A stretch of 39,208 nucleotides of DNA from a virus: IMG/VR virus record IMGVR_UViG_3300042484_000328, positions 1 to 39,208 of that record; one strand, written 5' to 3'. The notes below the pieces were generated by a model. The model had not been told where the DNA came from. It made no database searches and saw only the letters and a program-made list of their open reading frames with translations. A program made the position numbers and the translations under genes. Below are positions 3,170 to 35,720 of the stretch, piece by piece (position 1 is the stretch's first letter; every line of letters starts with the position of its first letter).

Positions 3170-3196
3170 TTAATCCCTTTCAGTACCTAGCAACAC

Positions 3197-3215: not shown

Positions 3216-3232
3216 ATGAAGCTAGTCACTAA

Positions 3233-4243
3233 CTAGGCAATGCTAGAAGCAGACTCAATGCGGTACAACGCTTCCTGACGGTAGATAGCGTGTCCTAGAA
3301 CACCGTACCAACCGATTGGACGCTGACGCATCAAGCGGTCCACAACTGGACCAATGACTACGTGTGGTTCTTCAGCAACAGCTTCAGCAAGTGCTTGCTG
3401 TCCTGCTAGGAAAGTACGGTATACCTTGATTGAGCTGTCACCATCTGTAGCAGTGTACAGACGAGGAGACTCAATGAAGTATGCACCTTCAAACTGACCA
3501 ATTTCGCCAGCCCAGATTGCATCGTTGCTCTGGTACTCATGTGGGTTACGCCATGAAGCAGCACCAGTTTCGGCACGAAGGTCGTGGGAAACTTCTGGGT
3601 GAATACCACACCAGTAAAGTGAACCCTTACGTCCGTTAGCCTTGTTGCTACGCAACTTAGCTACAGCCTTACGGATATCAGCAGCAGATAGTGTATCATC
3701 TGAAGTGATTCCTGAAGTTGTAGTTGCAGTGGTTGTTCCACCAGTTGCGTATAGTACGTTACTGCCAGTTAGCAGAGCGTTCTGTGCTAGATCATCAATG
3801 CTATCAGCCATGTTGAATGCAATGATGTTAGCAACAGCAGGATCTACATCAGCAAGTGATAGAAGACCAAGCTTCTTGGTTACAAGAGTAGAGTTACCGT
3901 ACTCATTTAGAGTAATAGTAACGATATCTGGAGTACCAAGTGCTACTGCAGTTGGATCAACTTCTTCAGAAAGAACTGAAGTAGCCTTAGCTAGGTCGTT
4001 GTAAATCTGTAGAGCTACAGATGAACCTGGCATAGCCTGACGAGCAGGCTTCTTGTCTGCTACTGAACGTAGCAATGGGGTAGCGCGTAGTTCAAATTCA
4101 ACAAGGCGATCGTAAGCCTTCTGAACTAGACCAGCACCGTTAGATGGGGTGAATGTTCCTACGTTGTTGGCACTTGAGTAAGCACCACCACCGAGACCGC
4201 CATTAGTATTGGCGGAACCACCCGATAAGCCTGTTACAGCCAT
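3233..4243 (-). CDS. Major capsid protein, N4-gp56-like
   Basis: A 336-residue shell protein. A flexible Gly/Ser/Asn-rich N-terminus of about 35 residues precedes an HK97-type body. The middle contains the TITLNEYGNSTLVTKKLGLL segment typical of the N4-gp56/P22-like coat group, where a beta strand is followed by an EYG turn. The C-terminus GWYGVLGHAIYRQEALYRIE fits the final strand of that family. An acidic coiled-coil scaffold gene lies immediately upstream, the standard order. The ribosome site is strong (AAGGA about 7 bases before the ATG), and a hairpin follows the gene. The family assignment rests on motif memory, but the capsid role is well supported by position and neighbours. Confidence 0.87.
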   Translation of the reverse strand: MAVTGLSGGSANTNGGLGGGAYSSANNVGTFTPSNGAGLVQKAYDRLVEFELRATPLLRSVADKKPARQAMPGSSVALQIYNDLAKATSVLSEEVDPTAVALGTPDIVTITLNEYGNSTLVTKKLGLLSLADVDPAVANIIAFNMADSIDDLAQNALLTGSNVLYATGGTTTATTTSGITSDDTLSAADIRKAVAKLRSNKANGRKGSLYWCGIHPEVSHDLRAETGAASWRNPHEYQSNDAIWAGEIGQFEGAYFIESPRLYTATDGDSSIKVYRTFLAGQQALAEAVAEEPHVVIGPVVDRLMRQRPIGWYGVLGHAIYRQEALYRIESASSIA

Positions 4244-4276
4244 GATTATTCCTTAGGGGTTGTATGATTATTACGA

Positions 4277-4744
4277 TTATTCTGTGCCGTAAATCATTTC
4301 CAGTAATTCTTCAGCACTCTGAGCATTGTTAATGCGTGAGAACACATCATTAACATCGTCAGGAGAAAGAGCAGAGCCAATCGCAGCATCAATCTGTCGC
4401 AGTGTAGATAGATTTTCTTGATCTACCATAGGTTGCTGAGCTTGTGGCTGAACACCAAAGACTTCACCGTACTCATCCAACCATTTACTAATTGATTCTG
4501 GATCATTAGCAACATCTGATGGAATAAATGTAGCGATCTTAGGATTAACTCCTCTTTCATTGAGAACGGAACTAACAACAGACTGACGTTGAAAGTTACG
4601 TAAACCTTCTAGTTCAGATTCTAGTTCCTTGATACGCTTAGACTTAGCGCGATCAGCCTTACGTAGATTCTGTAATCCACCAGTCTGATCTTCTTCTTCT
4701 AAGAAGTCATCGTCGTCTTCGTACCATTCATTGTTGTTACTCAT
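4277..4744 (-). CDS. Capsid scaffolding protein
   Basis: A 155-residue acidic protein with an Asp/Glu-rich N-terminus, a predicted coiled coil at about residues 25-55 (KADRAKSKRIKELESELEGL) and a helical Gln-rich C-terminal half ending in an acidic tail. Size, composition and position just upstream of the major capsid gene are typical of phage scaffolds that assemble inside the procapsid and then leave. The ribosome site AAGGGAG stands 9 bases before the ATG. The longest spacer inside the late arm lies ahead of this gene, consistent with separate control of scaffold and capsid expression. No protease is seen nearby, so scaffold is probably released without cleavage. Confidence 0.8.
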   Translation of the reverse strand: MSNNNEWYEDDDDFLEEEDQTGGLQNLRKADRAKSKRIKELESELEGLRNFQRQSVVSSVLNERGVNPKIATFIPSDVANDPESISKWLDEYGEVFGVQPQAQQPMVDQENLSTLRQIDAAIGSALSPDDVNDVFSRINNAQSAEELLEMIYGTE

Positions 4745-4861
4745 CGTAACTATCTCCCTTATTCATCGGTTAAGCGCAGACCACAAAGCTATACGGGGAA
4801 TATAGCTTGGCTTCCACTACCAGTCTGTTACGTCGTTGGGGCTGGTTGATCCAACGAGAGT
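4745..4861 (-). promoter_or_regulatory. Spacer with two hairpins upstream of scaffold and capsid genes
   Basis: This 117-base gap is unusual in an operon where most genes overlap. It holds a perfect 8-bp hairpin at 4786-4808 (AAGCTATA with TATAGCTT, 7-base loop) and a 6-bp hairpin at 4834-4856 (CGTTGG with CCAACG). No convincing -35/-10 pair was found on the - strand. It may be an RNA processing site, an attenuator or a weak promoter that sets high expression of scaffold and capsid. Confidence 0.5.
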
Positions 4862-5680
4862 TTATACTTGAGCCTTGCGACTTAATGATCCAGTTTTAAT
4901 ACCTGAAGATCCACCAAACTCTGCACGAGCTTGAGAGGCTAAACGCTTGGTGCGCTTACTGGTTTGACCAAGAAGATTTTCTTGTTCAAGTTCTTTTTGT
5001 AAACCTTCGGTACTAGTTTCACCAAACATGCGAGATGCTTGTTCAATACCAGTTTTTTGTTCTGCAACTCTAGACAGACCAATTCTTGCCTTGCTTCTAT
5101 CTAGACCTTGAGATGTTAAGAACTCTGCACCTAGCTCTGACTTAATGCCAGTCTCTGTTTCTGCAGCCTTAACTTCAGCAATATCAATCTTATTCTTTAG
5201 ATAGTCTGAACCTTCTTTCCCAAGAAGTAAGCTATTGGCAATTTCATTATCGGTAATACCTGGATAAAGCTTGCGTAGTTCGTCAACAAGTGGCTTGTCA
5301 TTAGAGTTAACTGCGTTTTGCACACGAGTATAAGCATTAGTAAATCTTTTACTTAACTCATTTGGCGAAACATCATTGGCAATAAAGCTTGCAAAGTTTT
5401 GACGTGTAGCTAAACCACCAGCTTGATAAGCCTTCATGGTTTCTTCGTACATTCTTTCTTGGTAAAGATATTCACCTTCAGAAATAACTGGCTTACCTGC
5501 AGCTTGACGATCAAAGTTTCCTTTAAATCTAGCTTTGTATGGTTCAGTCTTGCGCAATTCAGAATAAATTATACTTCCTGATTCTGCACCATAATCGGCA
5601 ACAAGCTGAGTAATAACATCTGCAAGTTCAGACAAACCATTATCAATAAATATTTGTTTGAAGTCTTCCCAACCAGCCAT
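4862..5680 (-). CDS. Virion protein with actinophage-type helical module
   Basis: A 272-residue, mostly helical protein with no membrane segment. Residues about 40-130 contain a pattern remembered from many actinophage virion proteins: LRKTEPYKARFKGN, then a short GKPVISEGEYL segment, then DVSPNELSKRF. The module often occurs in large internal or tail-associated proteins. The C-terminal third is Gln/Glu/Lys-rich and probably extended. It is the last of four consecutive structural genes (1730, 319, 364 and 272 residues) between portal and scaffold, a position where short-tailed phages keep ejection proteins. The exact role is inferred only from context. Confidence 0.6.
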   Translation of the reverse strand: MAGWEDFKQIFIDNGLSELADVITQLVADYGAESGSIIYSELRKTEPYKARFKGNFDRQAAGKPVISEGEYLYQERMYEETMKAYQAGGLATRQNFASFIANDVSPNELSKRFTNAYTRVQNAVNSNDKPLVDELRKLYPGITDNEIANSLLLGKEGSDYLKNKIDIAEVKAAETETGIKSELGAEFLTSQGLDRSKARIGLSRVAEQKTGIEQASRMFGETSTEGLQKELEQENLLGQTSKRTKRLASQARAEFGGSSGIKTGSLSRKAQV

Positions 5681-5681
5681 G

Positions 5682-6776
5682 CTATCTCATTCCAAAAGTA
5701 GACAGTACATCATTTGCTACACTAAAGATCTTGTCTTTGTTTTTTATAACAGAAGCCCATTGATCTGTCTTACGTAAGTCTTTTACTACAGCTTCATCAC
5801 TAATTGGTCTACCTTTATCATCGGTAGCTCTCATTGCTTTATCTACAAAAGGATTCTTAAGATCAATCTTATCGATGCTTTCATCAAGTTCTGCAGCAAT
5901 ACGTTGACGATAACCAGCAGCTAAATCTTCTACACTATTAAAGTTATCTAACTTGTCAGCCCATGCTGAATACTGTTGCTTAGCAATATTTGTAATATAG
6001 TCTTTTGATTTATTAACATCAAAAGAATTAGAAGTAATTCCTCTTACTTGATTAAGAATCCAATCTTCAGCAACTGTTACGTTATTCTTTTTAGCCCAAT
6101 TGCGAATATCATCTTCAGCTTCACCAGCTGCGCCAAATAAAGAACCAATTTTTTCTTGATCGGTTTGACCAGAAAAAGTAATGTATCCAGAAATTAAACT
6201 TCTTAATTCAGAATCGTTTAAACCATTCTGCATTTGAGTTTTAGCTAGTTCTTGTGCTTGAGCATCAGATAGGTTTGCACCCATTAATCCAGCAACAGCT
6301 TTTACTTGTGCTGTACTTCCAGCTACTTGCTTATTAAAGTCTGCTGCTTGAGCAGGATCCCTAGATAAAGTGTAATACTTTCTTTGAGCTTCACTTTTTT
6401 CTTTATACCAAGTAGTGTTTTTAAGCTCAACAATAAACTTATCTGGACCCCATTCTTCACCACGCTTTTCGGCAGCCCAGGCTTTATCAAATAATTCACT
6501 AAGGCTACCAGCACCAGTACTAGATCTAATTACTGCAAGTGGTATATTAAAATCAGTACCAGCAGTTAACTGAGATGCTTTTTCAGCTTGACCAATCCAA
6601 CCTCTGTCGTTGTCCCATACAAAGTCACCTTTAGGTGCTGCTGGTCTTACCCAAAATGCACCTTTTTCAGTCCATGCTTTGCCAGGTCGTGGTCGTCTTG
6701 TTTTACTCTTTGTAGTTTTACCATCAGTTTTTGACGTGACTGTTTCATAAATACTAATTTTATTTTTATCTGCCAT
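5682..6776 (-). CDS. Virion protein, WD-x-GW module (364 aa)
   Basis: A 364-residue, largely helical protein with a basic N-terminus rich in Lys, Thr and Arg. Near residues 50-65 it has FVWDNDRGWIGQAEK, which matches FSWDPNNGWLWKGNE in the next gene upstream. The two are therefore probably partners or distant paralogues with a shared anchoring motif. The C-terminal half contains long amphipathic helices and no catalytic signature. It overlaps the upstream stop by one base (TAATG) and sits one base from the downstream gene, so the set is translated together. It is probably a minor head or ejection protein. No named family was recognised. Confidence 0.55.
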   Translation of the reverse strand: MADKNKISIYETVTSKTDGKTTKSKTRRPRPGKAWTEKGAFWVRPAAPKGDFVWDNDRGWIGQAEKASQLTAGTDFNIPLAVIRSSTGAGSLSELFDKAWAAEKRGEEWGPDKFIVELKNTTWYKEKSEAQRKYYTLSRDPAQAADFNKQVAGSTAQVKAVAGLMGANLSDAQAQELAKTQMQNGLNDSELRSLISGYITFSGQTDQEKIGSLFGAAGEAEDDIRNWAKKNNVTVAEDWILNQVRGITSNSFDVNKSKDYITNIAKQQYSAWADKLDNFNSVEDLAAGYRQRIAAELDESIDKIDLKNPFVDKAMRATDDKGRPISDEAVVKDLRKTDQWASVIKNKDKIFSVANDVLSTFGMR

Positions 6777-7735
6777 TATGAACCTAATTGAATTGGATTT
6801 TCAAGTGCTTCCATAAAGTACGTCAGATATTTCGTAGCTTTATTGTAGCCTTCTGCTTCTGGATTAGCTAAAGCTTCTTTTCTCATCATGCTCATAGCTG
6901 CATCAGAACTTACTCCACCAGACTGAGTTTGAGTAGTAGTCTTACCAGATACTGTGCTAGTTTGCACTAAAGGATTTTTATCTCCAAATGATTGCAACTT
7001 AGAAACAAAATCTTTTAGTTCATCTTCTGTAGCACCGCGACCAATTGTTCGTTGAAACAATTCATCAATAGCAACATCGTAGTCTTCAACTTGAAACTTC
7101 TGGCGAGATATAGTCTTTCTTGTACCACCAGATCCACCACCACCAGTGGTTTCCCACATACCAGTCTTAGGTGCTTGAGCTAACCAATCATCAAGAGTTA
7201 AAATAGTCTTTGAACCTTGTGCTGATAAGCGTGTATTGGTTCCAGTTGCTGCAATAAGAGCATCTTGAAGAGCTTGCATAAAGTAAGGATCAGCATCATC
7301 ACCTGAACTTAAAGATGTTTGTGCATACTTTTCGCTACCATAAATTTGTTTGTCAGCTAAAACATTTTTTAGTGCAGTAATTCCACCAGGTGTAGCCATA
7401 CGAGTTTGTAATTCTTTTTGAACTGCAGAACCAAGTGTTATAGGAGAACCTGCCGTCAAGCCTTCAGTGCTAATTGTTTCAGCAATGTACTTTCCAGTTT
7501 GATCGCCAATAAAAACTACACTAATTCCTTCGCCTTCATTGCCTTTCCAAAGCCAACCATTGTTTGGGTCCCAAGAAAAAGCATCTGGACCAAACTTAAT
7601 TGGTTGAGTTCCTGTGCCCCAAGTTGAAAAGTTATTTGTAGCTGTTGCATTAATTGTAACTGGAGTAGTGGCAATGTTATTTGCTTGCTGTTGTTTCTTT
7701 TTTAAATACTCAGGAGTTGGTCCTATTGGTGGCAT
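6776..7735 (-). CDS. Virion protein, WD-x-GW module plus GR-AT-EL helical domain (319 aa)
   Basis: A 319-residue protein. A short N-terminal WD-x-GW motif (about residues 50-65) is shared with the 364-residue neighbour. After a Gly-rich linker (GGGGSGG), residues about 210-260 read ELFQRTIGRGATEDELKDF followed by SFGDKNPLV. That helical module is recalled from large virion proteins and tape-measure-like proteins of aquatic and actinobacterial phages. The start overlaps the stop of the giant 1730-residue gene by one base. It is probably part of the internal core or neck. The function is unproven, and the domain identification is by memory. Confidence 0.55.
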   Translation of the reverse strand: MPPIGPTPEYLKKKQQQANNIATTPVTINATATNNFSTWGTGTQPIKFGPDAFSWDPNNGWLWKGNEGEGISVVFIGDQTGKYIAETISTEGLTAGSPITLGSAVQKELQTRMATPGGITALKNVLADKQIYGSEKYAQTSLSSGDDADPYFMQALQDALIAATGTNTRLSAQGSKTILTLDDWLAQAPKTGMWETTGGGGSGGTRKTISRQKFQVEDYDVAIDELFQRTIGRGATEDELKDFVSKLQSFGDKNPLVQTSTVSGKTTTQTQSGGVSSDAAMSMMRKEALANPEAEGYNKATKYLTYFMEALENPIQLGS

Positions 7736-10700
7736 TAGTTTCCTGCTCCCTTAATAACATTGCGATTAATTGTGACTTGAGCATCACGTGACTTTGAATT
7801 CATTAGCTTAAGTAATCCATACTTGTAGTATTGCTCAACTGTTTTGGTCGGATCAGAATCAATAAGGTTTTTAATTCTTTCTATTGCTTCTGCTTTTTTA
7901 GCCCGCTTTAGTTCCGCACCATTAGAAGGTTCTAGCAAACTAATTTGATTTGCATAATTAATAAACTCATTGTAGATCTCATAAGATGTATTAATTTTGT
8001 CTCTTACTTCTGGTCTTAAGTCAGCATCTGGAGAGTTAACGTAGTTATATGTTGACTGAATAAAGTCAGAAGCATCACTATTATCTGCTCCGCTTCTAAT
8101 GTGATCCTCTAAACCAGGAACACCAAGCAACAATATCTTACGCTTTCTTTCATATGCCTTAATTGAAGACCTGCGCAAGTTTGCATTTGAAAATGGAATG
8201 TTTCTTAGATCCACTTCTTCTTCATCATTGATTGCATAGTAAGCATTTGCGTATTCTTTAAGCATTACATCTTCGTAATACTTGCTGATGTAATCGTAAA
8301 CACTTGCATTTTCTGGAACCTTGTTAACAATGCCAGCAGCTTCAGCCCACTGGTATACACCAGGATTAAATTCTCCAGTGTAAGGAGCAAACATAAGTGC
8401 ACCTGCACCATACTTATCAATGGAGTCTTTATTCTTAATAGCCCAGTTCTGCATTTCATTTGAGAACTTAATTAATGGCTTGACACCTTCTTGATTTGTA
8501 GATACAAGATAAACAGTCTTGCCTGGATTGTCGCCTACCCAAGTTGCATAAGCTAGTTCATAAGGATCTTCTACATCTGGATACTTCATCTTAACTTGAT
8601 CAAGCACTTCATAAAAACTAGACTTCATACTTACTACACCATTGTCTTTTAAGTAAGTAGGAAGATCTTTAGTATCTTTTGATTGAACGGCAAATGGAAG
8701 AATCATTCCAAGTAGTGCACGAGTTACAATAATGTTATGTGCAGAAATCTTTACATCAGCTAGATACTTGCGCTTTGCTTCATCTAGTCCAGCCTGATCT
8801 ATAGTTCCATCTTCTCTTGCATAATCAGTTGGATTAATACCATAACCATTAGCTTGGTAGTAACTTAAAGCTTGAGTATAAGCAGAAACTTCTTGTTGTG
8901 AACGCTCGTCTGGAGATAGCATTTTCCAAATGTTGTTAACAAACTTAGGAGCAATAGCACTACGCAAAGTTACGTTGTCACCCATTGGACCAAGTGCAAT
9001 CTGATCAATGTCTTCAGCAAATTGCTTGGTAGGGTCAAACTTATTGAGTAATGTTTTAACTCCCAAAATAGATAGTGCACCAGCAGGACCTGAAAGATAC
9101 GGCATACCAGCATCATCTTGGAAAGAAGGGTTTCCAGCAGTTAACTTAAATGTAAGATCATTAAACAACGGCTGAGTAACTCCAAATTCACCGTTAGTTA
9201 ATGTACGAACTGTGCTATCTACTGCACCAAAAATAATATCGTCCATAGGTAAGACAACAAATCGCTCACCATCTTCGTCTTCGTGTACAGCACCAAGAGA
9301 ATCAAAACCTTGACCCATTAAACGAAGGCGATAAATAGTACTTAGCTTGTTGTACTTAACAAGACGGAACATGCGACGATGAAAATCTTCTACTGCTCTG
9401 TAAAAACGACCAACAGTTCGCATATTGTATGCAAGTACAGTTCTAACTTCTGGATTATCCGCATACTTTAGAACTTGATTAGCAGCTCTTGTCATAGCAC
9501 GATCAGTAAAGAACCTAGCAGCTATTTCTTCAGAGTTAACTTTAGCCTGTGATGGGTCAATGCCCTGTTTAATTTGCTCATCATAAATGTTTTTAGCATA
9601 AGCAACTTCATCAGCCTTAGATTCTTTACGATATGTTATGTAATGAGCATGCACTGCTGGTTGACGATAGATATCATCGCTCTGACGGCTCATCATTTCA
9701 AAAGCTTTATCGCGATACTTGCGATGCCAAGATTCTAGATTGTCGCTAACGTGAAATTCTAAATCAGTAAAGACTCTTTCTTCTGGAAGATTATCTTTTA
9801 CTAATTCTTTGTAGCTTTTTATTTTAACTTTACCGCTAGGATGAAGAACATCTTCACCAAGTTTAATTTGGTCAACTAAATAACGATGATCTTTTATGTA
9901 GCCATCAGTAAATGGCTTAAACAGTGAGTATAGTTCTTCGTTAAAGGTTGAACTATTACCATGAAATCTAACGTAAAGATCTGAAAAAACATCTTCAATA
10001 AATAAACGAGCCTTTTCAACATCAGGCAAGCCATCAAACTTAGCCATGTGAGTACTTGATTCAAGAAACTTCTTTACGTCGCCAACTTTTTTATTGTTAA
10101 CTTGCCAGATAGTTCCATTAAATTCAAAACCAATACCTTGCAAAAATTGATTTGTAGCATTAACTAAATCTTCTTCAGTTCTTAAACCATTGTTAGCAAG
10201 AAACAATCTTGCTGGATCTGCTTCTGGTATAACTTTTCCACCAAAGCTAAATCCTTTAGAAGAGAATGCAGAAATAAAGTTATCAAACATAACGGTATGA
10301 ATATGGGCATCTGTCATGTCCCGTGGATCCATAGACTTAAATATGCCAGTAGCAACTGCACCAGCTTCTTCAAGCGATATATCATTGCTTGACTTAGAAA
10401 TTAATCCAGTAGTAGTACCACGTAAACCTTGACGTGACAACAATGCATCAATAATATTTGAAGAACTTACTTGAGATAAAATATTTGGATTGTAACGAGC
10501 AGCATCGTGTAACATTGTTCGGTACTCTTCAGGCAACTTCTTGCCATACTTTGTAAGAGCCATATCAAATAGTTTTATACGAGCAGCTTGTTCGGCTTCA
10601 TACTTTGTAGCGTATACACCTTCTCGTAGTTTTTCTCCAGCTTCCGCAAAAACTTCATCACGTTGACCTTGAGTGATACCACGAACAGCACCGTATTCTT

Positions 10701-12927
10701 TACCAGTTACTCTTCCAGCTATTACCTGTAGAATATTTTTTAGTGGACCAGTAGCAGCAGTGCTACCAGTGTATGCGCTAAAAACATTTCCAATTTTCTT
10801 TGCACGAGAAAACTCTCGCATCATTCCAAGATTTGCAGTTAGACCAAAAAAGAAACCTTCGTCAATTGCAGTTCTAATACCAAGCTGTGGAATAAGAGTT
10901 AGCAAACTCCAAGTATCAGTAAGCGTTCCAACAATCTTGCTATTGTAAGCTCCACCAATAATATTGGTTGCATTTTCTACAGTAAGAGATGTATCTTTTT
11001 CCGACCTTCTAGCAACAAATTCAGAAATTACGCGCCAGTCAAGTGGGGCAATTCCATCCTTTAATTGATAAGGAAGAAGTGGTCCCATAACTTCTTGAAC
11101 TTCATCTCCACGATTCCATGCAGAAGGTTTTGCAATTCTTTCAGAACTAGCAAAAGATCCACGGCTACCATAATGGAAGTCAAGAATTCCATTCATAAAA
11201 TCTTTACCGCCTGGCATACCATGAACACCAGCGCGACGCATAGTTAATTCGTCAAGGCTTTTCTTTAATGCAATTCTTTGTTGTTGAGTAGCTGTTTTAA
11301 AATGCTCTGTAAACATATGAGCAAGTCTTTTATCATCTAATGCTAAATAAGCTTGTTCACGTACAACATCAAGGGTTTCAATAACCTTGTCATCATCAAC
11401 AAAAATAGATTTGTTTCCAGGATGTAAAGAAGTTTGACGCTCTATAAATTTGCGTAAACCTTTACCTGCGGTTGTTTTAATTACTTTATCAATATCTGTG
11501 TAATCAAAATTACCAGTGCGATCTAAACCAGCCTTGTACATATCGTCAAGTAGTTTTTCCGCACCAACTTTATCTAGTTCGTCGAAGTCTACTTTACCAG
11601 TAAAAAATTCTCTAACTTTTTGTTTTGCACCTAAAGTAAACTCACGAGTAGAACGTGCAAACGCTGCACCTTCTCTAGAAAAAGAAATGCCAGCAACTTT
11701 ACCATGTATTAAATTAGCAAAGTTTTGTGGATTTTCATCTGTAAATTGACTCTTAAATGTGTCAAAGTCTATTACGCCACTTTCAGCCCAAAGATCAATT
11801 TCTTTATCAGTACCATGCTCTGCATACTTTCTAGAAATTCTTTCCTTAATCTGACCAGCTTTAATTGAATCGCCAGAGTCAACTGCTTTTTTGTAGCTAC
11901 CAATTTCTTCTGCGTATCCAGTAAAGTAACGAGCAACTTCTGGTCTAGCAAAGTGTTCTACAACATCTCTACTTGTTTTAAGTGCTTTACTAATTTTACC
12001 AGCTTTACCAACAGTAACAATACCAGCACTTAAATAAGTTAATGGATCAGCAAAAATTTGAAATGCAAGATCAATACTTCCAGAACCAAATCTAAACCAA
12101 TCTGGATGTTCTTCGGCATCAATACCAAAACTTTTGTTTACCCAGCGAGCGACATTGCGCCCAGGAGACAAACGTGCGCGATCAAATTCATCCATAATGG
12201 ATGCCATCTCATCTGGTTCATTAAATACTTTATCAATTGCACCGAGGATCTCCGCATCATTTGGACCCCAAGCATCAATAATTTCACCAGGAGTTTTACC
12301 AGCAAGTAAATGCATTGCAGCAAAGCCAACAGCCTTGCCATGTTTTTGAACTAATGACTCTGCAAGTTCGTTATCGTAATTAAAGTCTCCATCAAAAGAT
12401 GCTTCAAAATTTGAACGAGTCCAAAAATCTTCACGATTAATTACTGCCTGCTGTGCCATTGAGTAAGGAGTATTAAAAGCTTTCACGTACTGTTCGGCAC
12501 CAGCAAATAAAAATCTAAAAGGAGACTTAAAAACATCTCCAACACTTAAACCATTGTCAAGACCAAGTAGTTTTCTTTTTACTGGATCTTCAACAAGCAT
12601 GTTACTTGTAGGCTTGTTTTCATAATCAATATTGTAATACGAACGAAGAACAACTTGTAAGTCTGGATGCAGTTTATTAAAAGATTCTGCAGCTTTTTTG
12701 TTATTCATTGCCATTAATTTTTCATGGGTACTTTTAACAGTAGACCAGTTTTCAATTAAGTTGCGTTCTTCACGAGTAAGATTTGTGCGAGCACCTGCAG
12801 CAAAAAGAGCAGGGTTAACTTCTGCTACAACAGGATTAAGATTTCTTTTAGCAGCATCAGAAGGTAAGTTGGTTACTTCACCAAACATACTTTCTGGTTG
12901 AAAGATGCTTTCTGGTTGCATACTCAC
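7735..12927 (-). CDS. Giant 1730-residue virion protein (candidate internal/ejection protein)
   Basis: This is by far the largest gene, about 13% of the genome. The product is mainly helical and has no lysozyme, transglycosylase or peptidase motif that could be recognised. Hydrophobic stretches occur around the middle (segment WSLLTLIPQLGIRTAI) and later (ARALLGMILPF-like), which could cross or disturb a membrane. Size, position after the portal and lack of a recognisable tail tube make an internal core or DNA-ejection protein more likely than a tape measure, though a tape-measure-like role is not excluded. The first possible start is a GTG at 12927 overlapping the upstream TAG, and an ATG six bases later (12921) is an alternative. 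The family is not named with confidence. Confidence 0.65.
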   Translation of the reverse strand: MSMQPESIFQPESMFGEVTNLPSDAAKRNLNPVVAEVNPALFAAGARTNLTREERNLIENWSTVKSTHEKLMAMNNKKAAESFNKLHPDLQVVLRSYYNIDYENKPTSNMLVEDPVKRKLLGLDNGLSVGDVFKSPFRFLFAGAEQYVKAFNTPYSMAQQAVINREDFWTRSNFEASFDGDFNYDNELAESLVQKHGKAVGFAAMHLLAGKTPGEIIDAWGPNDAEILGAIDKVFNEPDEMASIMDEFDRARLSPGRNVARWVNKSFGIDAEEHPDWFRFGSGSIDLAFQIFADPLTYLSAGIVTVGKAGKISKALKTSRDVVEHFARPEVARYFTGYAEEIGSYKKAVDSGDSIKAGQIKERISRKYAEHGTDKEIDLWAESGVIDFDTFKSQFTDENPQNFANLIHGKVAGISFSREGAAFARSTREFTLGAKQKVREFFTGKVDFDELDKVGAEKLLDDMYKAGLDRTGNFDYTDIDKVIKTTAGKGLRKFIERQTSLHPGNKSIFVDDDKVIETLDVVREQAYLALDDKRLAHMFTEHFKTATQQQRIALKKSLDELTMRRAGVHGMPGGKDFMNGILDFHYGSRGSFASSERIAKPSAWNRGDEVQEVMGPLLPYQLKDGIAPLDWRVISEFVARRSEKDTSLTVENATNIIGGAYNSKIVGTLTDTWSLLTLIPQLGIRTAIDEGFFFGLTANLGMMREFSRAKKIGNVFSAYTGSTAATGPLKNILQVIAGRVTGKEYGAVRGITQGQRDEVFAEAGEKLREGVYATKYEAEQAARIKLFDMALTKYGKKLPEEYRTMLHDAARYNPNILSQVSSSNIIDALLSRQGLRGTTTGLISKSSNDISLEEAGAVATGIFKSMDPRDMTDAHIHTVMFDNFISAFSSKGFSFGGKVIPEADPARLFLANNGLRTEEDLVNATNQFLQGIGFEFNGTIWQVNNKKVGDVKKFLESSTHMAKFDGLPDVEKARLFIEDVFSDLYVRFHGNSSTFNEELYSLFKPFTDGYIKDHRYLVDQIKLGEDVLHPSGKVKIKSYKELVKDNLPEERVFTDLEFHVSDNLESWHRKYRDKAFEMMSRQSDDIYRQPAVHAHYITYRKESKADEVAYAKNIYDEQIKQGIDPSQAKVNSEEIAARFFTDRAMTRAANQVLKYADNPEVRTVLAYNMRTVGRFYRAVEDFHRRMFRLVKYNKLSTIYRLRLMGQGFDSLGAVHEDEDGERFVVLPMDDIIFGAVDSTVRTLTNGEFGVTQPLFNDLTFKLTAGNPSFQDDAGMPYLSGPAGALSILGVKTLLNKFDPTKQFAEDIDQIALGPMGDNVTLRSAIAPKFVNNIWKMLSPDERSQQEVSAYTQALSYYQANGYGINPTDYAREDGTIDQAGLDEAKRKYLADVKISAHNIIVTRALLGMILPFAVQSKDTKDLPTYLKDNGVVSMKSSFYEVLDQVKMKYPDVEDPYELAYATWVGDNPGKTVYLVSTNQEGVKPLIKFSNEMQNWAIKNKDSIDKYGAGALMFAPYTGEFNPGVYQWAEAAGIVNKVPENASVYDYISKYYEDVMLKEYANAYYAINDEEEVDLRNIPFSNANLRRSSIKAYERKRKILLLGVPGLEDHIRSGADNSDASDFIQSTYNYVNSPDADLRPEVRDKINTSYEIYNEFINYANQISLLEPSNGAELKRAKKAEAIERIKNLIDSDPTKTVEQYYKYGLLKLMNSKSRDAQVTINRNVIKGAGN

Positions 12928-13328
12928 TAAACAATACCTCTAGAGTTTAAGTCTTGAAGAATCATTTCAACCTGACCAGTTGGATCATTTTGTGCAAGAC
13001 GACTTAAAACTTGAGTTGCATTAAAAGAACGGGCAGGAAGATTAAGAACTTCTGGTCCAGGACCAGCACCCATTGGATTACCTGCAGTTACAGCTTCGTC
13101 TGGAAATTCAGATGGAGCAAACATTGTAGTTACGTTTGGTTGAACAGCACGTGGTCGCTTAGCCATTGGAGCACCAGACATTAAATCTTCTGTAGCTTTA
13201 CGATCACCATAAACATTTGGATCACTTGCAGTCATCATGTCTGTACGTTGTGATAGAGCACCTGGACCTGATACTGGTTTAGCTTGAGTCTTAGTGCGAA
13301 CTGGTCGCTTACCGCCTTGCTGTGCCAT
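12927..13328 (-). CDS. Small Pro/Gly/Ala-rich virion-region protein (133 aa)
   Basis: A 133-residue protein with a basic, low-complexity N-terminal half (GGKRPVRTKTQAKPV) and a more ordered C-terminal helix of about 35 residues ending QDLNSRGIV. It has no membrane segment and no Cys or His cluster. It lies between an 82-residue acidic protein and the giant virion protein, with a two-base gap on one side and an overlapping stop/start on the other. Together with its partner it may be a portal accessory or packaged protein. It was not recognised. Confidence 0.55.
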   Translation of the reverse strand: MAQQGGKRPVRTKTQAKPVSGPGALSQRTDMMTASDPNVYGDRKATEDLMSGAPMAKRPRAVQPNVTTMFAPSEFPDEAVTAGNPMGAGPGPEVLNLPARSFNATQVLSRLAQNDPTGQVEMILQDLNSRGIV

Positions 13329-13330
13329 AA

Positions 13331-13579
13331 CTAATCCTCTTCTTCTTCTTCAGTAAAATCATTTTCTAATGCATGTTGGATTAATCCAGTTACATGCCAT
13401 ATTGGTGATTTATCATCAAATATTGTGCTTGCCCAATACTGACCATCACCATCAAAGAACTCTGCAGTAACAAAGTACATAGTGCAAAAAGCACCATCTT
13501 GATGAAACGTACTACCGTACTCATCAAGTAGGTCTTTTAATTTACTTCTAAATAAAGCTAAGCGTTCTTCGTCTGTCAT
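13331..13579 (-). CDS. Small acidic protein downstream of portal (82 aa)
   Basis: An 82-residue acidic protein ending in a run of Glu and Asp (EEEEED). The middle is compact and aromatic (FCTMYFVTAEFFDGDGQYW), suggesting a small alpha/beta fold. It overlaps the portal stop by four bases (ATGA), so it is translationally coupled to portal. The charge and placement would suit a portal or scaffold helper or a DNA mimic. Nothing identifies it by sequence. Confidence 0.6.
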   Translation of the reverse strand: MTDEERLALFRSKLKDLLDEYGSTFHQDGAFCTMYFVTAEFFDGDGQYWASTIFDDKSPIWHVTGLIQHALENDFTEEEEED

Positions 13580-15324
13580 GCTCCACCACTCAGACGGGCT
13601 AGAATACTAGCAACATCTGGTGGTGGTCCTGCTGGTTGACCTGCTGGCTGTTCTGCTGCAGGTGCTGGAGCACCCTGTTGCATTTCTTCAGGAGCTTGAG
13701 GTTGTTCTGGCATAGCTGGAGCTTCTTTAGCTTCAACTTCTTCCTTCTTAAAAATTTCCATTACTGCATCTTCAATTGCAGTACCCTTCTTCTTCATGTC
13801 AATTACCGTAGCAATCTTTTCAATGATTTCTGAAGGGTCAGCTCCATTAGCTGCCATTTGTGGAATAGCTTGAGTTAATGCTCCAATAGAGCCTGCAAGA
13901 GCATCGCGCATTCTTTCAACATCAATGCGATCCTTTTCAAGACCAACATTCATGCTCCAAGGTAGTTCGCTCATTACAAATTCACGAGATAACAATCCAG
14001 CTTGCAAAGCCTGTAGTGAGAAGATAAGTGCACGTGATGGATCAAGTCCAGCCATAACACCATAACGAACTTGAATGCTGTAATCATTCTTAATGTCTTT
14101 AGATGGCTTGTAGCTAATTTCGTATGGCGCACCTTGGTAGACACCTGCCATAGTCTTTTCTTCATCAAATAAAGTTTGATCAATATCAAAGCAAAGTTCT
14201 ATAACCTTCTGGAATGTTTCAGCAAGAATCTGCTGTCCAGCTTTTACTTGCGAATCAAAGCCACCAAGAAGTGCTTGAACTCCAGAACCTGTAATAATAG
14301 ACGCATCAATGTTACCTGATCTTCCCTCTGGGTAACGAGCACCCATACGCATTTCTTGCTCAAGTAGCTGTTGCTCCATGAATGCACCATTAGGTAATTC
14401 AAGTGCTACACGGCGTACACCAGCAGGATTATTTGTACGGATAACTGAATCAGGACCAAACGCAAATTCAGATACATCGTTAGGTAAAACCAATGGAGCT
14501 TGTACAGATTTTTCTGCAGCTTCCATAGCCAACATGCTAAAACGAGCACGGGCAATTTGCGCCCATAGTACGTCATCAAACTGACCACGTGGGTCATCTA
14601 GGTCAAGTCCTGGACGACGAGCAACTACAACAGATAGTTTGCCAATTGGGTTCTTAGCTCTGCGAAGGATTAGATCGCCACGCTGTGGCAAAAACAAAAC
14701 TATTTGATCAGCATCTTCATAGCGCATTAATTCCATATTGGTATCAAGATCGTTTAGATCTCGACCAACATCACCAAGAATTGCGCGTTCGTATTCAGGG
14801 AAGTCAACAATTAACTCACGAATTGTTTTAATGTACTTCTTTGTAAAAGAAACACAACGACCAAAGCGATCAAACTCTGGGTAAGAACCCATAGGATTTT
14901 CCACGCGAATACGTGGCATCATTGAATCAAAGTCTGCGTCAACAAAGACTGGCAAGAATCCGTAGGTTAAGTACCAGTCGGCACCCGTATACATTTGAGT
15001 TTGAAAATTAGAAAACTCAATGTAGTTGTTGGCAATAATGGTTCGCTTGTCAGAGAACTTCTTTGCCTTATCAGAGTTGATATTTGCAGTAGAGCAGTTA
15101 AACGAAGGAAGGGGAGCAAGAACTTCAGCAATGTCACGAGCAGCAACATCAACAAAGTTGGCAATCATTGGACGAGACATGCCCTCTGGGAACATATCTG
15201 GGTACACGGACTCCATGTTTCCACGACGAACAGCAGTAATATCTGCCATTCTAAAGTCACGCTCAGCGTACCTGCGTGTTAGAGCCAATACCTTATTGGT
15301 AACTTGCTCAGTTGATAATGCCAT
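13576..15324 (-). CDS. Portal protein
   Basis: A 582-residue protein directly after the terminase large subunit, the canonical portal position, and of normal portal length. The N-terminal 150 residues carry the aromatic-rich helical segment typical of wing regions (YTGADWYLTYGFLPVFVDAD). The middle alternates beta strands and helices, and a long helix runs at about residues 420-480 (crown/stem side). The C-terminus is a Pro/Ala/Gln-rich tail. It forms the dodecameric ring at the capsid vertex through which DNA is packaged and ejected. The ribosome site AGGA lies 6-7 bases before the ATG, and the gap from terminase is eight bases. The assignment rests mainly on size, order and fold-like pattern. 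Confidence 0.82.
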   Translation of the reverse strand: MALSTEQVTNKVLALTRRYAERDFRMADITAVRRGNMESVYPDMFPEGMSRPMIANFVDVAARDIAEVLAPLPSFNCSTANINSDKAKKFSDKRTIIANNYIEFSNFQTQMYTGADWYLTYGFLPVFVDADFDSMMPRIRVENPMGSYPEFDRFGRCVSFTKKYIKTIRELIVDFPEYERAILGDVGRDLNDLDTNMELMRYEDADQIVLFLPQRGDLILRRAKNPIGKLSVVVARRPGLDLDDPRGQFDDVLWAQIARARFSMLAMEAAEKSVQAPLVLPNDVSEFAFGPDSVIRTNNPAGVRRVALELPNGAFMEQQLLEQEMRMGARYPEGRSGNIDASIITGSGVQALLGGFDSQVKAGQQILAETFQKVIELCFDIDQTLFDEEKTMAGVYQGAPYEISYKPSKDIKNDYSIQVRYGVMAGLDPSRALIFSLQALQAGLLSREFVMSELPWSMNVGLEKDRIDVERMRDALAGSIGALTQAIPQMAANGADPSEIIEKIATVIDMKKKGTAIEDAVMEIFKKEEVEAKEAPAMPEQPQAPEEMQQGAPAPAAEQPAGQPAGPPPDVASILARLSGGA

Positions 15325-15332
15325 TTAGTTTC

Positions 15333-29394: not shown

Positions 29395-29612
29395 TATTCG
29401 CTTTCAACGCTTCCGTAGCGTAAGTCCATGCCATTGACATAGTTAATTGCTACTGGCAGTGCTGCACCTAATGCAATAATAACAACTGGTGCTAGATCAA
29501 AAGATGCAATGTTATCTAGAACATATACAAGGACAGCACCTAGTGCTGCCTTTAACATGCCACCAAATGGACTATCTGCTAACCAAATACCAAATCTTTT
29601 TGCTTTACTCAT
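29394..29612 (-). CDS. Holin (two predicted TM helices)
   Basis: A 72-residue protein with two hydrophobic helices at about residues 19-34 (LKAALGAVLVYVLDNI) and 41-57 (LAPVVIIALGAALPVAI), a positively charged N-terminus (MSKAKRF) and a short acidic tail. Size, topology and position immediately ahead of the M23 endopeptidase are typical of holins that open the membrane at lysis. Start and stop are coupled to both neighbours by TAATG overlaps. Confidence 0.85.
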   Translation of the reverse strand: MSKAKRFGIWLADSPFGGMLKAALGAVLVYVLDNIASFDLAPVVIIALGAALPVAINYVNGMDLRYGSVESE

Positions 29613-31603
29613 TATAGTTTCCTTACTGTTACTAATAGTAAGCCACCAAAGCCACTACTATTTTTATCTGGAGAAGATTCATTACTAAATCTAACTTCTT
29701 CAATTACACCTTGATACTGCTCACCAGTACGGTAGTCAGTTACTGTTACAAACTTACCCGTCTCTTCAATAGATTCAATGCGTTGAATAAATTCCATAGC
29801 ACGACCATCGTAACCAAAAATAGAATTAAATCTGTCCATCTCATTGTCATAACAAGACAGTGGGTACTGATACAAACGCTGACGGCGTGTAGCTGGAGTA
29901 GATTTAATTTGGTAAGCCTCTAGTATAGGTAGGTCTTGATCATCGGTAGAGTTGTTAAACACAAACTTAAATGCCATAAACTCTTGCTTCGTAGAAGGCG
30001 TAGTTATTAAAATATCTTTATTGCTTAAGCCTGCACTAACAACTGCAAGAGATGATTCAAGACCAGACTTATCAATAGTAAAAATGGTTATACTGTCACC
30101 TTGACCAGTAGTACATTGAAGATTAACGTATCTAAAAAACTTAGGCTCAACAGTTCCATAACGAATCTTACCCGTCTTAAGCCAGCCAGTGCTACGCTTT
30201 CTAGTGGTGTGTTCTACTTGTAGCTCACCCTTAAGACCGTCTTGATTTTCTTCAACTACCATGACCAATCTATCGTCAACTAAATAAACTTCAGTTGCTT
30301 CAGAGTCATCTCCATCTTTACTAGATTGATACTCTAAGTCGTAAGCATAAGCAAACGTACCGTCACTAAATGATTGTGATAAGTCAATACGAATTAAACA
30401 AGCATTAGTGTAAGCACCATCAGCTACTTTAGTGGCTGCATAAATATACTTATCCTTAGTAGCAAAACCATTAACTGCATAAGTAGAATCAATTAGTAAT
30501 GGTCCAAGTGTTACTAATCCAGTAGGACCTACCTGACATATACGTACACCCTTAGTGGTAGCAACTGCTAAGTATCCTAAGTAGTATTCAATTGCAATAA
30601 TGTTTTCGCCATCAGGCATAGATGCTACAACAAAACCGCCTGGCAAGTCAGGCAAGTTAGTTCCTTCATCAAAACCTATTGCATAAATTTCAGACTTGTT
30701 ACCAGCATTACCAGCAGCATAAACATAAGTTGGACCAGCTGTTACATCTTTCCAGTTCCAGTTAGGATTAATGTGGACCTTAGATGTACTAGATGCAGCA
30801 GGCATGTCATTGCTACCAGTGTGATTACCATTGCCAGTATAAGCAGCATTTAATAAGTAAAGAGTTTTACCATCACCAAAAAACAACTGTCCTTTAATGT
30901 ATTTAATTACACCTTGAGTAACAGAACTGTGTCTAGCAAATACAACATCAGTATCTAAATCATTAACAAGACCAGTATGAATACAAGTAGAACAGGCAGC
31001 GTAGTACCTAGTACCATTAGTTGCTACAGAAATAATTGGAAACGTAGTTGAGTGACCACTAAGTGTTGATCCACCAGCTACCACATAATCATCTTCGGTT
31101 GCTGCACTATTACCATTTAAAACAATCCGCTTTAGTACACCAAGACTATCACCAGATACAAGACAATCATTAGTACCGTCGTTACCAGTAGCAGCATTAA
31201 TGCCACTAGCATCACTGTATGCATAGAATACATCTGGAAGTAATGTAGCTTGTCCAATAGTCCATACATCTACACCACGACTATCTGCAAACCTATGGCT
31301 TACATGTTCGTAGTCAGTGCCTGGTTCATAGAATGAAATGCCACTACCATTATGCCATGATGTCTGTGATCGTAACCACCAACCAGTAAGTGATTGCTCA
31401 CCTGGTTCAGGACTATTATCAAACTGATCTTTTTTATATGGTGCAGTTTCACGACGATATGGATTTTGATTATTGACACTAACAATAAATGGTAGATCAT
31501 CAATAACAATATCAAAAGCTGTATCAGTTAATTCAAAGGTTGCTTCGGTTGATGGTACGGCAAGGTCATATGGAACACCTTCTGTAATATCATAAGTTGG
31601 CAC
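29612..31603 (-). CDS. Large tail protein, propeller-like (663 aa)
   Basis: A 663-residue beta-rich protein. The N-terminal 90 residues include ETAPYKKDQFDNSPEPGEQ and LTGWWLRSQTSWHNGSGI, motifs remembered from tail proteins of actinophages. Residues about 100-480 repeat strand-rich segments of 45-55 residues with recurrent Tyr/Gly positions, suggestive of a beta-propeller. It lies between the collar fibre gene and the lysis cassette. The GTG start at 31603 is preceded by AAGGAG with 5-base spacing. It is probably a tail tip or hub component that contacts the host or carries fibres. The domain call is inference. Confidence 0.65.
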   Translation of the reverse strand: MPTYDITEGVPYDLAVPSTEATFELTDTAFDIVIDDLPFIVSVNNQNPYRRETAPYKKDQFDNSPEPGEQSLTGWWLRSQTSWHNGSGISFYEPGTDYEHVSHRFADSRGVDVWTIGQATLLPDVFYAYSDASGINAATGNDGTNDCLVSGDSLGVLKRIVLNGNSAATEDDYVVAGGSTLSGHSTTFPIISVATNGTRYYAACSTCIHTGLVNDLDTDVVFARHSSVTQGVIKYIKGQLFFGDGKTLYLLNAAYTGNGNHTGSNDMPAASSTSKVHINPNWNWKDVTAGPTYVYAAGNAGNKSEIYAIGFDEGTNLPDLPGGFVVASMPDGENIIAIEYYLGYLAVATTKGVRICQVGPTGLVTLGPLLIDSTYAVNGFATKDKYIYAATKVADGAYTNACLIRIDLSQSFSDGTFAYAYDLEYQSSKDGDDSEATEVYLVDDRLVMVVEENQDGLKGELQVEHTTRKRSTGWLKTGKIRYGTVEPKFFRYVNLQCTTGQGDSITIFTIDKSGLESSLAVVSAGLSNKDILITTPSTKQEFMAFKFVFNNSTDDQDLPILEAYQIKSTPATRRQRLYQYPLSCYDNEMDRFNSIFGYDGRAMEFIQRIESIEETGKFVTVTDYRTGEQYQGVIEEVRFSNESSPDKNSSGFGGLLLVTVRKL

Positions 31604-32846: not shown

Positions 32847-33746
32847 CTATCGTGTGAAGTGGATTCTAGTTGGGTTACGATCAGTTAACTTTCGACTTTC
32901 TTCAGCAAGTCTCTTGTCATATAGTGCAAGCAAGTACTTAGCAGTATTAGTACCAGCACCATAAGAACGACCAGCAATCTGTGATTGTTGATCTGATTCA
33001 GCAGAGCCAAAAGTTAGACGACCTGGATCTACAAATGAAGCTAGTCGTGCTGCTGCACCAAGAACAATTACATCCTTACAGGACACAGGTAAACCAGTGA
33101 CAATTTCAAACTCATCATCATTAGTATCCATTACGGTTGGTGCGGATGTATAAAATATCTGTACAGTTCTTCCTGGTTCAACACCAGAGTAAAGACTAAT
33201 ACTGTTGCGAGAATTAAAAGCAGCAGTGTTAGCCATAGAATCAACACGCCAACTACGAATAGGAAGCCATTCTTTAGATGGACCAGTAGTTTGGAAGGAT
33301 ACTGCAAGCACAGTTTCTGCTTCGTCAGGTAAAGCATAAGTTGATTTAGCTGTTGAGTAAGAAAATGTATGGGTAGCAGTAGCATACAAGTCTGGATAAA
33401 CTGCCTGAATTGTATCATTAATAGCTTCCTTAATGTCTACAGATGGGAAGGTAGGAGATACAATTACACGTGCACCGTTCTGATGTGTAGCAGCAGATGT
33501 GCCATTGTACCCACGACCATAAGGTGGAATGCTAAGTACACCAGTATTGCGGTCATATGAATCTACATAAATTAATTCATCATCAATTTGGATAACACCA
33601 GTAGAAATGTTAGTAGCAGAAGCAACAGTAATACTAGTTGCAGTTGTATTAACTGCAGCAGTAAGGTGTGTCTGACGATCTTGACGCAGAGTAAAGCCTG
33701 CTAATTTACGTGATACCTCATCAGTCATTTGACCAAACGTAGCCAT
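32847..33746 (-). CDS. Tail adaptor-like structural protein (299 aa)
   Basis: A 299-residue protein. Residues about 30-100 form a domain with TSITVASATNISTGVIQIDD, then LIYVDSYD and GVLSIPPYGRGYNGT, recalled from tail-attachment proteins of aquatic phages. The fibre gene downstream has a similar arrangement at its N-terminus. The rest is alpha/beta with a helix-rich C-terminus. It lies between a large charged protein and the collar fibre. It may be the adaptor or neck protein to which fibres attach, which would fit a short-tailed phage lacking a tail tube gene. Function inferred. Confidence 0.6.
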   Translation of the reverse strand: MATFGQMTDEVSRKLAGFTLRQDRQTHLTAAVNTTATSITVASATNISTGVIQIDDELIYVDSYDRNTGVLSIPPYGRGYNGTSAATHQNGARVIVSPTFPSVDIKEAINDTIQAVYPDLYATATHTFSYSTAKSTYALPDEAETVLAVSFQTTGPSKEWLPIRSWRVDSMANTAAFNSRNSISLYSGVEPGRTVQIFYTSAPTVMDTNDDEFEIVTGLPVSCKDVIVLGAAARLASFVDPGRLTFGSAESDQQSQIAGRSYGAGTNTAKYLLALYDKRLAEESRKLTDRNPTRIHFTR

Positions 33747-35718: not shown

Positions 35719-35720
35719 AA

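Follow-up and report, generated by a model that had tools for sequence, protein, structure and literature searches.

We propose that the giant 1730-residue protein encoded in the window (the whole stretch of 39,208 nt analysed, IMG/VR virus record IMGVR_UViG_3300042484_000328) is the largest subunit of an ejection (internal core) complex in a short-tailed phage whose hosts are probably freshwater Actinobacteria; we put the probability at roughly three in four. The computed basis comprises the conserved architecture of the gene set around the giant, cysteine depletion, short-tail gene content, hydrolase domains on the Streptomyces partner homologues, exchange of the set between relatives and, in relatives carrying E- or F-type sets (as in the phages E7 and F5), switching of the portal tail together with the set. 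For the giant itself we infer a location in the virion, ejection, an oligomeric channel and contact with the membrane.

The giant gene and its set

A 1730-residue gene taking about 13% of the genome had been picked out in a preliminary description, and this was borne out by an intact 1730-codon ORF with a GTG start, running from 12927 to 7735, whose 5193 nt make up 13.2% of the window. Frame 1 of the plus strand contains many stops across the same positions. The window ends carry an identical 100-bp repeat, and this exact repeat indicates a circular assembly. A scan with the single giant sequence matched 11 IMG/VR loci, whose best segments were 54-100% identical (the locus at 100%, L011, spans giant residues 1-614 only), and a 15-sequence profile found 583 related IMG/VR stretches, the best 80 of which (79 loci) were kept for comparison. 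The giant ORF is therefore not a product of chance. Among cellular genomes, 38 pattern matches included no relative.

The set consists of the 133-, 1730-, 319-, 364- and 272-aa genes in this order, flanked by the portal gene and the scaffold and capsid genes (Table 1). The 364-aa partner resembles the C-terminal parts of Beephvirinae gp11 (NlpC/P60) and gp12 (SLT) and is without an enzyme domain, and the 272-aa partner resembles the C-terminal parts of the E7 530-aa and F5 482-aa proteins. Wall-hydrolase domains were found in none of the 87 partners scanned from the window and the IMG/VR loci. A GNAT hint in locus L022 (E 0.005) was under the Pfam cut-off.

Table 1. Positions of the set, its flanking genes and the short-tail genes in the window
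Feature	Position	Strand	Remarks
Major capsid protein, phrog_1357	3233..4243	-	right flank
155-aa scaffold-like protein, phrog_3760 at 0.0051	4277..4744	-	right flank, not exchanged
272-aa partner, phrog_8424	4862..5680	-	similar to Beephvirinae gp13; weak allele signal around window
364-aa partner, phrog_6654	5682..6776	-	follows the giant's allele
319-aa partner, similar to Beephvirinae gp10	6776..7735	-	follows the giant's allele
1730-aa giant, proposed main ejection (internal core) subunit	7735..12927	-	mostly alpha-helical by prediction; cysteine-free
133-aa protein, phrog_8200, no cysteine, possible connector	12927..13328	-
Portal protein, phrog_104	13576..15324	-	docking on its C-terminal tail proposed
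663-aa putative nozzle, phrog_11667 (no function assigned in PHROGs)	29612..31603	-
SU10-type adaptor, PF24175, 1.7e-6, short-tail marker	32847..33746	-

Domain, fold and homology searches

The giant had been described as having no recognisable domain, and our searches agree: Pfam gave no match at E<=1, PHROGs only two chance-level matches (0.043 and 0.2) and PDB sequences no match at E<=10. The hydrophobic patches mentioned at the same time are modest and number two, at residues 288-306 and at residues 1392-1414; their best 19-residue Kyte-Doolittle mean is 1.55, and they are not clear membrane spans.

Structure prediction and profile searches, suggested as a check, were run, and no internal virion protein was among the matches listed. 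The models of the two halves of the giant were mostly helical and of low confidence (pLDDT 67.2 and 66.6), and searching PDB with them gave no similar fold at E<=0.001 for either half. The best VIA-align Z scores, 6.8 (rmsd 4.6, 100 aligned) and 4.3 (rmsd 6.2, 58 aligned), appear ordinary for helical models; ejection proteins were absent among the fold-search rows listed, which with such poor models excludes nothing. When hhalign was run against the single sequences of T7 gp14, gp15 and gp16, no similarity was detected (best probability 0.4% for the W+E family, that of the window and E7, and 1.6% for any family). A hydrophobic 'DPL' motif common to the giant and residues 328-348 of T7 gp16 was rejected as a candidate link, being also found in 27 of 70 terminases and 39 of 54 capsid proteins; a DPL-type segment occurs in only 2 of 15 known or presumed ejection proteins. 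In BFVD, searched with the C-terminal model only, there were five matches at E<=0.001, three to proteins of uncultured Caudovirales phage and two nameless.

The same search gave a podovirus RNA polymerase row (E 0.37, not significant), which would be in line with the giant being a virion-delivered enzyme or effector in the head, such as an N4-type virion RNA polymerase or a polyvalent protein, with no channel role. The size of the giant and its place among head genes also suit this, and the channel role is a proposed one. However, no catalytic domain, that of RNA polymerase included, was found in the giant by Pfam or PHROGs (the fold models being poor), and exchange together with several partners and, in E/F relatives, the portal tail better suits a structural core than a lone enzyme. 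We consider a lone enzyme or effector unlikely.

Gene content indicates a short tail

The initial observation that no tail tube gene was present held: tail tube, tail terminator and chaperone families were all missing from the PHROG matches listed for 29 window proteins. Of the 28 late-region ORFs taken for genes, 27 are among these proteins, all but the 82-aa ORF at 13331-13579; for three of the 29, the best 25 families were considered. The putative nozzle has homologues covering >90% of its sequence in Streptomyces phages (29 records, some of which duplicate one phage). Abafar, which shares homologues of both the nozzle and the set with the window, has a tail of 16 nm by TEM (PMC11536984). 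Judged by gene content, namely the PF24175 adaptor, the nozzle kin and the lack of a tube family among the matches listed, the window phage is probably short-tailed.

These data bear on whether the giant could be a tape-measure-like protein of a long-tailed phage. It is large, helical and cysteine-free like lambda gpH and the phiC31 TMP, and BFVD gave its C-terminal model a weak match (E 0.058) to a protein annotated as a tape measure. Nevertheless, the absence of tube, terminator and chaperone families among the listed matches, the adaptor, the position of the giant gene between the portal and capsid genes, and the nozzle kin in podophages such as Abafar all point away from a tape measure, which is highly improbable. 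The window M23 protein matches tape-measure PHROGs via its M23 region only. Homology of the giant to tape measures together with tube genes, named beforehand as the finding that would count against a channel protein, was looked for, and neither was found among the PHROG matches listed.

Cysteine depletion

No cysteine is present in the 2818 aa of the five set proteins of the window. Giants are cysteine-free in 71 of 74 cases in the W+E family, in all 19 of the F family and in all 7 of the B family, as are 174 of 179 partners, compared with 5.25 cysteines per 1000 in 100 portals. Known or presumed ejection proteins (n = 15) contain 2 cysteines in 10,755 aa and 31 other proteins 185 in 19,671 aa; in gp11 of FlowerPower and Immanuel3 the sole cysteine lies in DCSG. 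The depletion is not specific, because the lambda and phiC31 tape measures, lambda V, the FlowerPower MCP, the 510-aa and M23 proteins of the window and 22 of 54 MCPs are also cysteine-free. Absence of cysteine is a pattern measured in the present analysis rather than one taken from the literature; the word 'cysteine' does not occur in the review PMC8954989.

Relatives in cultured phages

The cultured Planktophila phage E7 (LanE43AprE7) carries a homologous 1764-aa giant in the same gene order, with two large partners whereas the window has three. By tblastn, the E7 giant showed 28% identity across 28% of the window protein, and the comparison of W and E giant profiles gave 100% probability (E 4e-49). 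The Planktophila phage F5 (LanE43AprF5) has a 1711-aa giant without detectable homology to that of the window, and no profile pairing of F-type with W- or E-type giants detected any. The synteny of portal, 133-aa type, giant, partners, scaffold and capsid is found in the window, E7, F5 and the Beephvirinae, which differ by a tRNA array preceding the scaffold.

The Beephvirinae, podophages that infect Streptomyces (FlowerPower, Immanuel3, Manuel and Abafar), resemble the window in having a syntenic cysteine-free giant of 1635-1648 aa, a nozzle homologue and partners that match the window 319-, 364-, 272- and 133-aa proteins by blastp. The giant homology is weak: between the W+E profile and that of Beephvirinae gp9 the probability was 42% and the E value 2.6e-4, with collinearity along 1358 columns, compared with E 0.66 in a column-reversed control, and tblastn with Immanuel3 gp9 at E<=0.01 reached only Streptomyces phages. 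The Beephvirinae carry remote kin of the set. They are unlike the window in having four large partners, with NlpC/P60 and SLT domains on partners (FlowerPower gp11 NlpC/P60, 1.7e-29, and gp12 SLT, 3.6e-5). Wall-hydrolase domains are present in the FlowerPower and Manuel partners; Stella gp13 had no SLT in the domain scan. Beephvirinae set genes are annotated as hypothetical, peptidase, glycosylase or minor tail protein.

A third alternative is that the giant is an internal scaffold or head-completion protein that is not ejected and stays outside the cell, as it is mostly helical and adjoins the region of the scaffold and capsid genes. However, the window has a separate scaffold-like gene, and the wall hydrolases on the Beephvirinae partner homologues would be of use only at entry or lysis, so that a non-ejected protein is very unlikely.

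Exchange of the set and of the portal tail

Giant identity between the window's allele (W1) and a neighbour allele (W2) is 0.43-0.47 (72 pairs), compared with 0.57-0.89 within W1 (36 pairs) and 0.57-1.00 within W2 (28 pairs). For terminase, portal, scaffold and capsid, the same- and different-allele ranges coincide. The 319-aa partner has a W1-W2 identity of 0.25-0.37, with which the W2-W2 range overlaps at 0.31. Around the window, following of the allele is clear for the giant and the 319- and 364-aa partners and unclear for the 133- and 272-aa proteins. The same- and different-allele ranges of these two overlap, and the idea that the 133-aa protein switches with the set there was dropped; this protein is variable, and its divergence near the window is not clearly allele-linked.

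E7 and F5 have a common host, and their DNA aligns at 96-98% in two stretches, one running from the terminase up to the set (E7 2833-8372) and one starting at the scaffold (E7 16922-38376). Their sets are without any DNA match, and they also differ, patchily, in the remaining ~3.6 kb. The exchanged block starts within the counterpart of the 133-aa protein, and the set coincides with a published 8 kb island of 3 versus 4 hypothetical genes, for which no function was given (PMC10202952). Related phages appear to swap the set as a genetic block. Neither membership of the giant in a set nor this exchange featured in the preliminary description.

Only in E/F relatives do the last ~50 portal residues switch with the set. 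Over the last 60 residues, portal identity is 0.58-0.70 for E-F (60 pairs), 0.75-1.00 for F-F (105 pairs) and 0.88-1.00 for E-E (6 pairs), computed without an upper limit on core identity, and portals with identical cores (1.000) have tails at 0.617 (E7/F5) and 0.667 (L018/L033). In both backgrounds, the peak of tail divergence and the set are separated by DNA regaining about 90% identity. The window's allele and the neighbour allele showed no such switching (W1-W2 0.870 versus 0.886 and 0.841, in pairs limited to core identity 0.93-0.985, with the closest pairs left out). Co-switching would be expected if the set docks on the portal inside the head, and we propose the portal C-terminal tail as the docking site.

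Proposed function and significance

In the proposed mechanism, the giant and its 133-, 319-, 364- and 272-aa partners would be packed in the head, on the portal, during assembly. On adsorption, they would pass in unfolded form, before the DNA, along the channel of portal, adaptor and nozzle, and could then refold in the envelope, lengthening the short tail through the thick wall to the membrane. A channel protein specific to actinobacterial short-tailed phages had been suggested from the start. This suggestion is supported in part, by the lack of a tail tube family among the matches listed, the adaptor, the putative nozzle kin and the Abafar tail, cysteine depletion like that of known ejected proteins and the portal-tail co-switching in relatives, and the place in the virion, the ejection and the channel role of the giant are putative; specificity to Actinobacteria fits WhiB and the cultured E7 host, with few isolates to date.

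T7 gp14, gp15 and gp16 are, by inference, similar to the window set as a multi-gene group of large helical cysteine-poor proteins in a short-tailed phage. However, the T7 genes come after the tail genes, while the window set lies between portal and capsid. The host envelope of T7 also differs from that of the window phage. SU10 shares the adaptor family PF24175 with the window, and its head contains ejection proteins according to PMC9509320.

According to the review PMC8954989, ejection-protein genes are common in podophages of Gram-negative hosts (with Mycobacteria listed there) and not found in phi29-like phages of Gram-positives, and a wall-hydrolase domain is not universal in ejection sets. 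If podophages of Streptomyces and Planktophila do carry an ejection set, the host range described in that review would be wider. No paper naming the set was found in the open-licence PMC literature. The freshwater order Nanopelagicales is abundant, and E7 and F5 are its first phages in culture (PMC10202952); our reading would provide a likely function both for a large 'hypothetical' family and for their unexplained 8 kb island. As the two share one host and align closely on both sides of the set, the role of ejection-protein choice can be tested with them.

More tentatively, the set could be a multi-allelic 'ejection-type' locus, at which phages swap whole entry machines as interlocking sets. 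The portal's C-terminal tail (perhaps with the 133-aa protein as connector) would be the key by which each set fits the portal, and phages infecting one host would then take different routes through the envelope; we regard this as possible, though rather doubtful. If true, the ejection-type allele would decide which membrane protein or intracellular defence the incoming phage meets, and would form a second layer of specificity besides the tail fibres.

The giant gene and its neighbourhood

The large ORF named in the preliminary description is real and intact, and it lies on the minus strand (see table). The genes on this strand run in the order terminase, portal, 82 aa, 133 aa, giant, 319, 364 and 272 aa, a scaffold-like 155-aa protein and the major capsid protein, and both ends of the 39,208-base record share a 100-bp repeat. 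The giant and its 133-, 319-, 364- and 272-aa partners are called the set here. No tail tube family appeared among the PHROG matches shown for 29 window proteins, which were 27 of the 28 late-region ORFs taken for genes and two others.

Selected features of the window and related loci
Feature	Position	Strand	Basis or remark
Terminase	15333	-	Window gene order
Portal	13576	-	Window gene order
Giant	12927 to 7735	-	1730 aa, GTG start
SU10-type adaptor	window, outside set		PF24175, 1.7e-6, above family cut-off
663-aa putative nozzle	window, outside set		phrog_11667, 1e-125
Fibres	window, outside set
M23 peptidase	window		3.6e-25
WhiB regulator	window		1e-12
510-aa protein	window 33746-35278		Cysteine-free, basic (pI 9.2), adjoins adaptor gene; no significant family match (Pfam, PHROGs)
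Three small ORFs (95, 272, 85 aa)	window 35431-36799		Lysine-rich, basic-looking; 95-aa ORF with weak phrog_220 'minor head protein and DNA pilot' match, 1.9e-5
Glycosyltransferase-like protein	window 37221-38291		phrog_13126, 1.8e-79; C-terminal TPR repeats (TPR_14, 2e-06)
178-aa protein, E7	L017:7500-8036		Between portal and set; weak proteasome/Ntn-hydrolase match (PF00227, 1.2e-5)
178-aa protein, F5	L016:17155-17691		Between portal and set
F-type giant gene in two ORFs	L034:6001-11128		1221 + 504 aa; real split or assembly error

The earlier statement that the giant has no recognisable domain was borne out, as no Pfam domain was found at E≤1, PHROG matches were at chance level, and its profile matched nothing among PDB sequences at E≤10. 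AlphaFold2 models built from 44-row alignments were mostly helical for residues 1-680 (pLDDT 67.2, pTM 0.46) and 600-1730 (pLDDT 66.6, pTM 0.40), a predicted quality too low to support any fold claim. Foldseek of both models against the PDB gave nothing at E≤0.001, and a BFVD search with the C-terminal model returned five viral proteins at that threshold, three of them described as uncultured Caudovirales phage and two unnamed.

Relatives of the giant and its partners

One-sequence scanning of IMG/VR identified 11 loci with giant relatives, and a 15-row profile identified 583 related stretches, of which the best 80 were kept; the cellular genome collection yielded none. In 50,697 annotated phage records, the sole tblastn match at E≤1 was OX376640.1, Planktophila phage LanE43AprE7 (E7)(PMC10202952), in which the gene order around the giant is that of the window. 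E7, its companion phage LanE43AprF5 (F5) and the WhiB regulator are the grounds on which the IMG/VR relatives are taken to be probably of freshwater origin.

Window-like (W) and E7-like (E) giants are homologous (hhalign 100%, 4e-49), and profile comparison detected no homology of F5-like (F) giants to either. Compared with gp9 of Beephvirinae (B), the W+E giants gave 42% (E 2.6e-4, collinear across 1358 columns; reversed control 0.66) and the F giants 3.6% (E 0.012; control 0.26). The W-to-B homology of the giants is weak, and the link between the window and Beephvirinae rests more firmly on neighbour genes: by blastp, the 319-aa partner matches gp10, the 364-aa to gp11/gp12, the 272-aa to gp13 and the 133-aa to gp7, and nozzle homologues are present in 29 Streptomyces phage records. 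The FlowerPower partners carry NlpC/P60 on gp11 and an SLT domain on gp12; no enzyme domain was found in the window's own set. For Abafar (Manuelvirus, Beephvirinae), a tail of 16 nm by TEM is reported (PMC11536984).

Six F-type giants (L039-L044) are 1871-1938 aa long, about 160-230 aa above the 1711-aa F5 form, and the one scanned, L040, showed no Pfam domain.

Exchange of the set

The published comparison of E7 and F5 describes an 8 kb island whose hypothetical proteins lack homologues, and assigns it no function (PMC10202952). This island coincides with the set. E7 2833-8372 and 16922-38376 align with F5 at 96-98%, with the remaining ~3.6 kb patchy. Nothing in F5 aligns by blastn (E≤1e-5) with E7 8373-16921, which holds most of a 147-aa gene and the 1764-, 442- and 530-aa genes; its F5 counterpart comprises 160-, 1711-, 364- and 482-aa genes. 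Portals are at least 90% identical in 60 of 135 E-F pairs, and E and F labels are intermixed on the portal tree, where starred branches force at least five and at least three changes.

Around the window, 68 loci were compared in 2278 pairs, which are not independent. Giants were less than 50% identical in 69 of the 150 pairs with portals 90-97% identical, and in none of the 38 pairs with portals at or above 97%. Nine loci carry the window's own allele (W1) and eight a neighbour allele (W2; loci within L058-L063 and L073-L082), and giant identity was 0.57-0.89 within W1 (36 pairs), 0.57-1.00 within W2 (28) and 0.43-0.47 between them (72), with no overlap. For W1-W1, W2-W2 and W1-W2 respectively, identities were 0.55-0.80, 0.51-0.92 and 0.40-0.50 for the 364-aa protein and 0.42-0.76, 0.31-1.00 and 0.25-0.37 for the 319-aa protein. 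The ranges overlap for the 272-aa (0.54-0.88, 0.59-0.96, 0.53-0.70) and 133-aa proteins (0.71-0.92, 0.70-1.00, 0.67-0.82), therefore the allele evidence for these two is weak. Mean identities of terminase (0.96, 0.97, 0.97), portal (0.93, 0.95, 0.94), scaffold (0.89, 0.93, 0.91) and capsid (0.91, 0.92, 0.91) were independent of allele. In the pair L078/L007, terminase (0.99), portal (0.97), scaffold (0.97) and capsid (0.99) flank a divergent giant (0.44), 319-aa (0.28) and 364-aa protein (0.48), whereas L007/L005 share both portal (0.96) and giant (0.89).

The spread within alleles shows that the set is also fast-evolving, and finding distinct alleles where the portals are equally distant argues for exchange in addition to fast evolution.

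The portal tail follows the set in E and F phages

In E-F pairs, portal differences lie mainly in the last ~50 residues. For both E7/F5 and L018/L033, core identity was 1.000 and last-60 identity 0.617 and 0.667; in 50-residue windows identity ran from 1.00 to 0.96 and then fell to 0.51 and 0.52. Across 4 E and 15 F portals, last-60 identity was 0.58-0.70 for E-F (60 pairs), 0.75-1.00 for F-F (105) and 0.88-1.00 for E-E (6). A filtered selection of pairs gave identical ranges, except that E-E reached 0.97. All 10 E portals compared end in a DIQ-type tail (6 by pattern, 4 by reading) and all 21 F portals in a DIMSIL tail, five F loci having no portal in the stretch compared. The DIQ tail is not exclusive to E, being present in at least one distant W relative (L105). 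The portal tails of Beephvirinae L014 and L015 were by eye closer to the F type, which fits the weak resemblance between F and B giants.

Two genes (178 and 84 aa) separate the portal tail from the set, and across them DNA identity regains ~0.87-0.98 in E7/F5; both divergence peaks recur in L018/L033, with a partial dip (0.65-0.75) within the 178-aa gene. As tail and set diverge with conserved DNA between them in both pairs, the tail follows the set on two portal backgrounds. The C terminus of P22-type portals is directed into the head, the site of the ejection proteins. At the place of the 178-aa gene, the window has only the 82-aa ORF.

No such switch was seen between W1 and W2 near the window (W1-W2 0.870, W1-W1 0.886, W2-W2 0.841), perhaps because these alleles are still homologous.

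Cysteine depletion

The five proteins of the window's set contain no cysteine in 2818 aa. Giants are cysteine-free in 71/74 W+E, 19/19 F and 7/7 B, as are 174 of 179 partners (proteins >200 aa); the averages for 100 portals and 70 terminases are 5.25 and 6.06 cysteines per 1000 residues. In T7, phiKMV, P-SSP7, P22 and SP6, 15 annotated or assigned ejection proteins, picked by annotation and gene order, hold 2 cysteines in 10,755 residues, against 185 in 19,671 for 31 other large proteins of our own choice. The sole cysteine of gp11 in FlowerPower and Immanuel3 sits in the DCSG motif of NlpC/P60 and is the catalytic cysteine of that domain. This scarcity fits proteins that need threading through a narrow channel. 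Cysteine is also absent from the lambda and phiC31 tape measures, lambda V and the FlowerPower capsid protein, and in the window from the 510-aa protein and the M23 peptidase; of 54 capsid proteins, 22 lack it. Its absence is a marker of a class, not of a function.

The set as a probable ejection core

The most likely reading of the set is an ejection core, proteins proposed to be packed on the portal inside the head and sent into the cell ahead of the DNA. This reading draws on large cysteine-free proteins, a giant predicted to be helical, the adjoining portal gene and short-tail genes, as well as the portal-tail tie in relatives and the wall hydrolases fused to Streptomyces-phage partner homologues. 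The class suggested in the preliminary description, an ejected channel protein, is right as far as computation goes; that it forms a channel is something we infer. The ORFs at 35431-36799 may be additional packaged proteins, and the 510-aa protein is possibly another internal protein.

No paper describing an exchangeable set, its identity with the island or the portal-tail link was found in the open-licence PMC literature. What seems to be new is the set as an exchangeable locus, which would explain the published island, with the portal tail following it in E and F phages.
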